Shown here piece after piece: positions 57,671-60,309 of a DNA stretch of 64,000 bases. The stretch's first letter is position 1; each line of letters opens with the position of its first letter. The notes under the pieces were generated by a model. The model saw only the letters and a program-made list of their open reading frames with translations. It was not told where the DNA came from and made no database searches. The position numbers and the translations under genes were made by a program. Source of the DNA: Polycladomyces zharkentensis (lineage in GTDB: Bacteria; Bacillota; Bacilli; Thermoactinomycetales; JIR-001). The DNA lies in contig NZ_JAFHAP010000008.1 in NCBI RefSeq assembly GCF_016938855.1, forward strand, positions 558,280-622,279, read 5' to 3'.

Positions 57671-57697
57671 AAATCAAAAAAGGAGGTTGCCCTCCTG
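57671..57697 (-). terminator. Terminator of the regulator-propeptide operon
   Basis: On the minus strand AGGAGG-GCAA-CCTCCT is followed by TTTTTTGATTT, eight bases past the propeptide stop codon. Confidence 0.9.
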
Positions 57698-57704
57698 TAA
57701 GAAA

Positions 57705-57827
57705 TCAGCCGTGGCTAGGTTCACCAAAAATGGAGACGTTTGTTGTATAAAAAGTGGGTTGTTCCGGAAGTCCATACGCTAAGACAGCTAGAAATGCTAA
57801 AACAAAGATAATTTTACAAAATCTCAT
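57705..57827 (-). CDS. RRNPP-type signalling propeptide
   Basis: A 40-codon gene: basic N-terminus MRFCK, a hydrophobic stretch IIFVLAFLAVLAYG suited to Sec export, then a polar tail LPEQPTFYTTNVSIFGEPSHG from which a short pheromone would be cut. ATG 57827 has AAGGAGG nine bases ahead, inside the end of the regulator gene, and the two frames overlap by 14 bases. A terminator follows at once. Size, architecture and position match Phr, PapR and NprX propeptides, which are exported, processed and re-imported by Opp to bind their cognate regulator. The mature peptide cannot be fixed but probably lies in the last 5-10 residues. Confidence 0.8.
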   Translation of the reverse strand: MRFCKIIFVLAFLAVLAYGLPEQPTFYTTNVSIFGEPSHG

Positions 57828-59139
57828 CACTTTCTTCCTCCTTGCTTTCCTCTGAAATGGTGGCAGCTACTTCATACATATTTTCCAAAACGGAGAGGAA
57901 TTCCTCTCTGCTGTCACCTTTTTTTAGTTTGGCAAGGCGGAACAGGGCTTTGTATTCCAGATTTTTATTTCGAATCTTTCGAGATAATTCCAGAGCTTTT
58001 TTGTAAAAATCAGTTGATCCAAGTATATTTCCGCGACACTGATCGAGATCACCCATCATTAAGTAAGCATAGGTCAAGGGGATCGCATTATTTGTATCTT
58101 TCCCCAATTGGATCGCCCTGTTTAAACTTTCCTCTGCTTCCTTTTCTTTTTGAAGGCGTGTATACAAAATTCCCAATTTTGTATATGCACTGATAAGTAC
58201 TCGATGCAGCTCGATTGTTTCTCCTATTTCCACGGCAGTCAGTAAACAGGTTTCTGCCTTGTTCCAATCCTGTATGGAAAGGTATACACTGCCTAAAGCT
58301 GTCCACAGCTCAAACAGACGATCCCTTTTATCAGTGAGGCGTGCTTTTTCAATCCCTTCCTTGGCGCATTGGATCGCCTCCCGAAACATTTTAGATTTTC
58401 TGAACACATTGGTTCGAATGTCATACAGATTCAAAGCAGTATCTATGTCCATTTTTTCGATATGATGCCACAACTCCTGAACAATCTTCATCGTTTCCCC
58501 AATCCGCCCCAGTTTTTCAAGATAAGCGGCTTTGTTACATGCAAACTTGTATTTGATCCAAGAATCCCCGTCTACGGTTTCCAATGCGTTTTCCGTGTAT
58601 TGTATGGCTTGCTCCAAATCATTCTGGTAAAAGCTGCAAATCCCCAACTCGTTGAAACTGAGCGCTTCAATATTGTTCACCTTATTGAAAGATGAGAGTC
58701 CCGCCAGACGAATGGCATTATAGAAAGATCGTTCCGCACGTTTCAAATCTTTCAGGTTGAAATAGCATCGCCCCATCAGATAGTGGCGGTAGGCCGCCAA
58801 CTTGTGCTGGTCGTCGATGGGAAGATCATGAAGCTGATTCAACAACTTCTGGTTATCGATGATATTGAGTTTGGACTCAACCGCCATCAGCTGATTGAGC
58901 AATTCCTCCAGTTTTTCGTTTTCCTCTTCCAATATCTCTGGAATCTGATCCAGAGTGATGCCAAGCTTGTCCAGCAGATACATCACTTTCTCCGAGCCGA
59001 CATGGGGAACGCCCCGCTCTATGTTGCTGACAGTGGCTGAGGAGATCTTTTGATCCGCCAAATCCTCCAAGCGAAGTCCCCTGCTTTTGCGAACTTTCCG
59101 AATCACTTCACCGATCTTAATCAGATCGAGATCCGCCAT
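57814..59139 (-). CDS. RRNPP-family HTH-TPR quorum-sensing regulator
   Basis: A 441-residue regulator with an N-terminal XRE-type HTH (about residues 8-65; RKVRKSRGLRLEDLADQKIS and ATVSNIERGVPHVG) and about seven TPR-like helical pairs from residue 100 to 420 (HYLMGRCYFNLKDLKRAERS, GSVYLSIQDWNKAETCLLTA, MGDLDQCRGNILGSTDFYKK). This is the plan of NprR, PlcR and AimR-like regulators that bind a re-imported peptide. Start ATG 59139 follows ATAGGAGGGGG. The gene ends inside the propeptide gene. Two TACGAnTTTTAA direct repeats (59186-59196 and 59208-59219) upstream may be binding sites. Confidence 0.88.
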   Translation of the reverse strand: MADLDLIKIGEVIRKVRKSRGLRLEDLADQKISSATVSNIERGVPHVGSEKVMYLLDKLGITLDQIPEILEEENEKLEELLNQLMAVESKLNIIDNQKLLNQLHDLPIDDQHKLAAYRHYLMGRCYFNLKDLKRAERSFYNAIRLAGLSSFNKVNNIEALSFNELGICSFYQNDLEQAIQYTENALETVDGDSWIKYKFACNKAAYLEKLGRIGETMKIVQELWHHIEKMDIDTALNLYDIRTNVFRKSKMFREAIQCAKEGIEKARLTDKRDRLFELWTALGSVYLSIQDWNKAETCLLTAVEIGETIELHRVLISAYTKLGILYTRLQKEKEAEESLNRAIQLGKDTNNAIPLTYAYLMMGDLDQCRGNILGSTDFYKKALELSRKIRNKNLEYKALFRLAKLKKGDSREEFLSVLENMYEVAATISEESKEEESDEIL

Positions 59140-59368
59140 GCCTCTGTATCCCCCTCCTATAAAATACTGATCATAAATATCATACTACGATTTTAAGAAT
59201 CTGGAAATACGAATTTTAACCTATTTTTTTAATTTCCATTTTGAAAGGGCATTATCGTGTGTAGTCCTTGGTGTGATGAGATCAAATTTCAATTACACGT
59301 CCATCGATTCCTAAAAAGACCGTTTGAGCCTATCAGGCTTCCGGATCGACCGTAAAATGTGCCACGTT
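59140..59368. other. Spacer right of the quorum-sensing regulator
   Basis: AT-rich to 59240, containing the regulator's promoter region and the direct repeats TACGATTTTAA and TACGAATTTTAA spaced 22 bases apart. No gene or repeat copy is recognised. Confidence 0.45.
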
Positions 59369-59557: not shown

Positions 59558-60309
59558 TTAAACCGGAAAATGCTTGAAAAACCAATCTGTCGCCAGCTTC
59601 TCCACGATCGACCAATGCTCCATCAAACCATGCTTCGCCCCGTCAATGATCTCCAACTTGGAGTCAGGGGACAACCACTTCATGCCCCGTTTCGTCAACT
59701 CGCACAAAGCCCTTTCCTCTTCATCGGCATTACCGTGAATGATCAATACCGGGCAGTGTACATTTTTCGCAATTTCTCCTGGTTGATCAACTCAAAATCC
59801 AAGAGCATTTGCCGGTCAACCATGACGCTTCTGTTTCCCCTCCGTACGGTGATATGGCCTTTTTCTCTTAACTCTTGCATTTGCTCTTTTGTAAAATATT
59901 CATCCCAATCATATTTCATCGGGCCTGTTAAGGCGCCTGTCAACACCATCGTCGAAATCTGAGGTGTGTAACATTGTAAGCAAACGGTACTCCCCAAACT
60001 ATTTCCATAGAGGGCAATCCTGGCATATCCCATGGATGTTACAAATGAAATGGCGGAACGCAGATCATCCACCCATTTGGCCAGTGTCAGTCGATCATCG
60101 TCACTTTCACCGCAACCGCTGAAATCAAAAACCAGGACACTATACCCTGACCGCTGAAAGGAATTTGCGAGTTGATCAAACCTGCCTCGGGACGATTTAT
60201 CCGAAGTAAAGCCATGACACATGATTATGATGGATTTGGCAGAAGATGAATAAAGATTTCCTGCCAGCGTGAGATTTCGGGAATTATGAAAGGTGACCCT
60301 TTTCATCAT
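59558..60309 (-). pseudogene. Alpha/beta hydrolase with a frameshift
   Basis: An alpha/beta hydrolase in two frames. The first part (60309-59743) holds the oxyanion region IIIMCHGFTSDKSSRGRF and the nucleophile elbow LYGNSLGSTV near residue 102, and derails at EKLRKM; the second frame continues HGNADEEERAL (catalytic Asp region) and IDGAKHGLMEHW (catalytic His). The break is at an A-run (five T on the plus strand at 59763-59767): one extra A would give KNVHCPVLIIHGN and restore a normal protein of about 250 residues. It may be a true frameshift or a homopolymer reading error. Confidence 0.8.

Follow-up and report, generated by a model that had tools for sequence, protein, structure and literature searches.

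A regulator gene of Polycladomyces zharkentensis overlaps, at its 3' end, a frame of only 40 codons. This arrangement raises the question of whether the two genes encode a receptor and its own signal and, if so, which residues of the small product represent that signal. The locus lies on the minus strand of the window (the whole 64,000-nucleotide stretch of DNA that was analysed), and a sequence-only reading took it for a self-contained RRNPP quorum-sensing cassette. This proposal is supported by the gene arrangement, the predicted fold of the regulator, the recurrent pairing of its homologues with similar small genes and a shared rule for the peptide tails; the two genes very probably constitute a self-contained RRNPP-type cell-cell signalling pair. 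The unit consists of the following elements.

57814 to 59139, minus strand: HTH-TPR regulator gene (441 aa), delineated by its ORF, Pfam matches and structure model; predicted intracellular pheromone receptor and transcription factor.
57705 to 57827, minus strand: propeptide gene of 40 codons (ATG at 57827, stop at 57705), overlapping the regulator gene.
57837 to 57843, minus strand: Shine-Dalgarno sequence AAGGAGG of the propeptide gene, 9 bases before its ATG, read from the sequence.
57681 to 57696, minus strand: intrinsic terminator stem of 6 pairs with a T tract, 8 bases past the propeptide stop, closing the two-gene unit.
59179 to 59207, minus strand: promoter-like site TTTCCA-17-TATGAT upstream of the regulator, recognised by eye and similar in five other members of the genus.

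The two genes share 14 bases (57814 to 57827), and the 40-residue propeptide reads MRFCKIIFVLAFLAVLAYGLPEQPTFYTTNVSIFGEPSHG. Its AAGGAGG sits within the codons for the low-confidence C-terminal tail of the regulator. Translation from a GTG one codon upstream would give 41 residues; the ATG is the likelier start, because the orthologous locus L005 has GCG at the GTG position. The terminator has a minimum free energy of -10.2 kcal/mol (z -3.5; 1 of 200 shuffles is equally good), and the stem at L005 is weaker relative to its own shuffles (z -1.2; 26 of 200). The sequence-only reading was thus correct in describing a 441-residue regulator with a 14-base overlap, a strong ribosome site for the small gene (57843 to 57837) and a terminator right behind it (57696 to 57681).

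Upstream of the regulator, the window (59179 to 59230, minus strand) and loci L002 and L005 to L008 carry the element TATTTCCA or ATATTCCA. By eye, it is followed in all six genus members by about 17 bases and then TATGAT. The poor -35 part of this shared element suggests a regulated promoter.

The regulator comprises two predicted parts.

58966 to 59124, minus strand: helix-turn-helix part (residues 6 to 58), from an HTH_3 match at residues 13 to 65 and helices in the model.
57820 to 58953, minus strand: TPR superhelix (residues 63 to 440) of nine helical hairpins by our count, from the secondary structure of the model; NprR 5dbk_A aligns over residues 72 to 429.

Pfam searches find HTH_3 and several TPR families above their cutoffs, and no NCBIfam family exceeds its cutoff. 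The AlphaFold2 model (72 aligned proteins) has a mean pLDDT of 93.7 and shows, in order, the HTH, nine helical hairpins and a low-confidence tail, with a mean pLDDT of 55 for residues 431 to 440 and values below 50 for residues 436 to 441. When the structural matches from Foldseek are realigned with VIA-align, the best is apo NprR 5dbk_A (Z 28.9, rmsd 4.4, 345 residues aligned) and the second is Rap 4gyo_A (Z 28.4). The NprR-NprX complex 4gpk_G scores Z 25.9, and eukaryotic TPR proteins, including LGN, come close behind NprR and Rap, with Z up to 27.1; AimR chains are absent from the 50 entries listed by VIA-align. Foldseek itself ranks LGN-type chains first and Rap 4gyo_B 28th, with no NprR among its best 50 matches. 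The NprR/Rap-like fold of the model supports RRNPP membership; the fold alone is weak evidence, because LGN and similar proteins lie near NprR and Rap in VIA-align and above Rap in Foldseek.

Sequence searches against the PDB return matches of the HTH part to regulators that we take to be of the Rgg type. In the corresponding profile search, most of the best 60 of 146 matches are generic TPR proteins and none is NprR; Rap105 takes rank 60 (1.7e-8). The viral structure library yields mostly generic TPR and repeat proteins from giant viruses. The sequence-only reading had proposed a search against profile models, counting the lack of a TPR match against itself; the Pfam matches to both HTH and TPR families and the NprR/Rap-like model fall on its side. 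RRNPP(A) receptors are defined by five to nine TPR repeats, with or without an N-terminal HTH, and the regulator has this architecture.

Full-length copies of the regulator number three in the window genome (the window's own included) and five and four in two sister species, a count that leaves out two partial matches in G002. At E <= 1e-60, matches occur in 41 of the 42 genomes of the order; a single genome has as many as 18 copies, and the matches add up to 338 by our sum. Among 398 genomes drawn from the whole class, the 38 that match at E <= 1e-40 all belong to the order; for the other 360, with at most four candidates scored per genome, no match is reported at this threshold, and among 12 of these searched again at E <= 1e-10, one has partial matches. 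A scan of genome contigs with the single protein found no relative, and one with the family alignment found 97, from which 79 named loci were kept. We take these to come from genera of Thermoactinomycetaceae or from metagenome bins.

The homologous loci were inspected for a downstream small ORF with a hydrophobic core, a basic start and a ribosome site. Such export-like ORFs are found at 74 of 139 loci, drawn from 39 genomes, versus 3 of 139 in antisense and 17 of 695 in mononucleotide shuffles; small downstream ORFs are commoner at regulator loci than expected by chance. Setting aside five judged chance hits (L040, L041, L071, L128 and L141) and adding L066 and L068, whose propeptides exceed 80 residues, leaves 71 receptor-propeptide pairs, found in 25 of the 39 genomes; as the 139 loci are the better-scoring part of the 338 matches, 71 of 139 is the rate for this sample and not for the whole family. 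A plausible propeptide with the tail SEPKGT was missed by the filter at L051, and 34 of the 79 named loci have a candidate propeptide. Together, the two sets of loci, largely from the same genomes, provide 76 distinct ORFs, 51 of which start 14 or 17 bases upstream of where the regulator stop codon ends and 66 of which share one common frame relative to the regulator.

The C-terminal ends of these ORFs follow a common hexapeptide rule, roughly [S/G][E/D/N]P[G/S]xx. A proline is found at position -4 in 64 of the 76 (four of which are judged chance), usually preceded by E, D or N and followed by G or S, and S or G occupies position -6 in 41. The 12 ORFs that lack this proline are the four chance hits, seven with a proline at -3 or -2 and L007, which has it at -6. 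The -4 proline also holds in 15 of the 18 clusters into which the receptors fall below 50% identity. In several propeptides the tail unit is repeated in tandem, as in SEPGGL (three and four copies), GNPGEY (four), EDPGMS (three), GDPIHT and SKPGGH (two each); such repeats of the hexapeptide unit probably mark the pheromone part of the propeptide. The most repeated units in the set are those of L066 and L068, with six and seven tandem FPGP units downstream of the regulator.

The sequence-only reading had suggested that conservation of the last residues with a drifting linker would favour a signalling peptide, and this pattern is found at the homologous loci. At L005, whose receptor is 85% identical to that of the window, the tail is GIPSHG in place of GEPSHG and the linker is unrecognisable by eye. 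L030 and the receptors that share 65% identity or more with it are eight in number and are 68 to 88% identical among themselves, apart from one near-identical pair; six have tails of the form S(E/Q)PGG(L/V) and two have SQEPGWP units; their linkers differ in length and sequence and do not align by eye. For receptor pairs below 70% identity, in ungapped alignments from the C terminus, the mean BLOSUM62 score is +5.0 for the last six residues versus -3.3 per six residues of linker, a contrast that somewhat favours the tail as the conserved part. Receptor similarity correlates with tail similarity (Mantel rho 0.295, p 0.002, 499 permutations), versus 0.077 (p 0.052) for the linker.

The propeptide of the window can be divided accordingly.

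57771 to 57827, minus strand: export-signal-like head (residues 1 to 19), read from the sequence, with R2 and K5, a hydrophobic core and a possible A-Y-G cleavage site after G19.
57708 to 57725, minus strand: predicted mature pheromone GEPSHG, the last six residues, suggested by the family motif and the tandem repeats.

This agrees with the layout of export-type hydrophobic core and polar tail described in the sequence-only reading. Hydropathy, charge and the ribosome site characterise the small gene as the adjacent propeptide gene with an export-type head that is expected of RRNPP(A) systems, and sequence conservation places the signal, as expected, in its C-terminal residues. The mature signal is predicted to be GEPSHG, since the tail shares the -4 proline, the unit is repeated elsewhere in the family and the linker drifts. 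The cut near VSIFGEPSHG proposed in the sequence-only reading is narrowed by the -4 proline and the tandem units to a putative cleavage that leaves the last six residues. The propeptide would thus be translated from the ribosome site in the regulator's tail, exported by the general secretion route, to which its basic start, hydrophobic core and possible A-Y-G site point, and cut before G35, as the family pattern indicates, leaving GEPSHG. The genome encodes four Opp-type binding proteins (SBP_bac_5), and an oligopeptide permease might take the hexapeptide back in. Judging from the fold, it would then be held in the concave groove that the nine TPR hairpins form, and its binding may change the DNA binding of the regulator.

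Several other readings of the small ORF have to be weighed against this one. That it is a spurious frame over the regulator end and the terminator is scarcely credible: the ORF is short and 68 of 139 homologues have no detected counterpart, but the recurrent start (51/76) and common frame (66/76), the far lower control counts (3/139 and 17/695) and the conserved tails all argue for a real gene. Small membrane toxins have the same layout, with about 40 residues, basic ones at the start and a hydrophobic core, and the small gene overlaps that of the regulator. The product might therefore act on membranes, for example as a type I-like toxin or as a bacteriocin, with the regulator controlling its own toxin and sensing no signal. 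This is very improbable, though less so than a spurious frame, because what is conserved is the polar hexapeptide at the C terminus, of which several propeptides carry two to seven copies, while the linker drifts, and a pore former would not need a repeated polar tail.

A further reading accepts the RRNPP pair and differs in the active peptide, which would be a longer tail (e.g., SIFGEPSHG) or an internal piece. Mature RRNPP peptides usually have 5 to 10 residues (PMC7425212), the motif of L007 is shifted inward by two residues, and at least four residues come after the repeated unit in L036 and L037. Set against this, the proline is at -4 in 64 of 76 ORFs and most repeated units are of about six to eight residues, so that a different mature form is unlikely, if clearly less so than a toxin. 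GEPSHG accordingly stays the preferred candidate for the signal.

Regulators without an adjacent propeptide are common, amounting to 68 of the 139 under the criteria used. They include three of the five homologues in the sister genome G001. L009, a sister-species paralogue about 50% identical to the window regulator, is followed by a degenerate frame only. Homologous loci with the regulator kept and the small frame broken were named in advance as evidence against the pair. Such loci do exist; the 71 pairs nevertheless stand, and the unpaired regulators look like orphan receptors beside them rather than a refutation. Peptide genes are absent or degenerate among some AloR systems as well (PMC7425212). 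Receptors L003 and L010 to L013 of the genus also have no propeptide, and these and L009 are possible eavesdroppers. No propeptide is detected for any of the eight receptors that come closest to the SEPGG group without belonging to it (L039 to L044, L123 and L124; 58 to 65% identical), and pairs are therefore lost or gained in whole clades; these eight reflect either clade-wide loss or peptides encoded elsewhere.

According to PMC6458997, a conserved Asn contacts the peptide backbone in all RRNPP members. Asn202 of the regulator is suggested by the sequences as a candidate for this residue, as all 71 pair receptors have it, versus 45 of 68 others. So do 40 of the 52 unpaired receptors whose identity to some pair receptor reaches 42%, and the six genus members without a propeptide; since orphans keep it, the residue does not separate the two classes cleanly. 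An EE pair occurs within the last 14 residues of 38 of 71 pair receptors versus 14 of 68 others. This excess fits an acidic regulator tail whose codons contain the ribosome site for the peptide gene, which suggests that the flexible tail of a receptor can serve as a carrier of the ribosome site for its own ligand gene.

The four window neighbours encode cation efflux, alpha/beta hydrolase, permease and aldehyde dehydrogenase proteins; hydrolase and efflux genes also adjoin L005 (the efflux gene there was read by eye). The alpha/beta hydrolase gene (59558 to 60309, minus strand) is split into two overlapping frames of 188 and 62 codons, and a single intact frame is found beside L005; the split is either a frameshift in the gene or a sequencing error. 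A set of 94 neighbour ORFs was chosen at the named propeptide loci, and the 69 of them that were searched show no recurrent target gene; the neighbours across the family are diverse. These 69 ORFs match 85 Pfam families, and the best 25 of the 85 are mostly housekeeping. BrkB (8 members) and DapH (4) were considered as recurrent targets and rejected, being read as one orthologous chromosomal site. SEPGGL/SQEPGWP-type pairs (L154, L155, L161 to L165 and L193) have an upstream minus-strand ORF of 272 to 304 codons, and the tally of all neighbours contains eight ORFs matching BrkB and four matching DapH; these eight pairs look as if they occupy one conserved site across several genera. Among the inverted repeats of 94 upstream regions, with some loci represented twice, no conserved operator is found; A/T-rich dyads alone exceed the shuffles (17, versus at most 8 in ten shuffles) and were rejected as an operator and attributed to composition. 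Carriage by a phage or prophage, typical of AimR-AimP, is not seen: none of the four neighbours is a phage gene, and 50,697 phage records contain no match at E <= 1e-5. Among plasmids, a single weak match is found, in Staphylospora (23%).

Among known systems, NprR-NprX of the Bacillus cereus group resembles the window pair in its receptor with an HTH and nine TPRs and in a small propeptide gene just downstream. The NprX core, SKPDIVG, is unlike the [S/G][E/D/N]P[G/S]xx tail of the window family. The regulator has the predicted NprR-like fold, with an HTH and nine TPRs, that is expected of the NprR subfamily, a fold to which unrelated TPR proteins also score up to Z 27.1. In the structural alignment to 5dbk_A it is 13% identical; PMC10075063 assigns NprR membership from at least 30% sequence identity over 80% to the reference NprR. 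The matches of its family at E <= 1e-40 came from the order alone (38 of 398 class genomes drawn). PMC12700828 places NprR-NprX in RRNPP clan B.

AloR-AloP of Paenibacillus polymyxa is similar in having many HTH-TPR receptors per genome and ORFs of 32 to 50 aa just downstream; as described in PMC7425212, one tested AloP hexapeptide, SHGRGG, lowers expression of its target. This system belongs to another lineage, the likeness is one of description, and the best 25 of the 85 neighbour Pfam families include no spo0E-like one. The AimR-AimP hexapeptide of phage SPbeta, GMPRGA (PMC6458997), agrees with the predicted GEPSHG at G1 and P3; the arbitrium ending RGA is absent from the tails of the window family. 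Moi et al. 2025 (PMC12700828) describe a DPG motif as widespread in AimP peptides and in Paenibacillaceae subfamily 08. DPG and EPG are frequent in the tails studied here too, and by analogy this anchor might predate the individual subfamilies. RRNPP_detector, as presented in PMC10075063, inferred four Thermoactinomycetaceae gene clusters to be under an RRNPP system; because systems were already predicted in this family, the window pair is a new member of a known RRNPP kind. Six tail strings, including GEPSHG and SEPGGL, do not occur in the literature searched, and the words "quorum" and "pheromone" are absent from the main text of a review of Thermoactinomycetaceae (PMC11810901).

The novelty seems to be a lineage-wide hexapeptide rule in which no tail is repeated within a genome. 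Among 62 tails from the 16 genomes with two or more pairs, no last-six tail recurs inside any genome, as expected for separate channels; some, such as GDPVHI and SNPGAG, recur between genomes. The second propeptide tail in the window genome, from a paralogue, is GDPRSG. Tentatively, and with slightly more doubt than confidence, the Thermoactinomycetales might use a lineage-specific many-channel code with up to eighteen receptors, non-repeating hexapeptides of a shared grammar and eavesdropping orphans. The window would then be the private channel GEPSHG, GDPRSG would be the second channel of its genome, and the orphans would listen to sister channels or to neighbouring species. In any case, the locus points to a specific hexapeptide that can be synthesised as a candidate signal, in a group for which the literature searched contains no named signalling peptide. 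The roughly seventy natural receptor-peptide pairs, with their shared anchor and variable positions, form a set for studying how specificity evolves and how orphan receptors arise.
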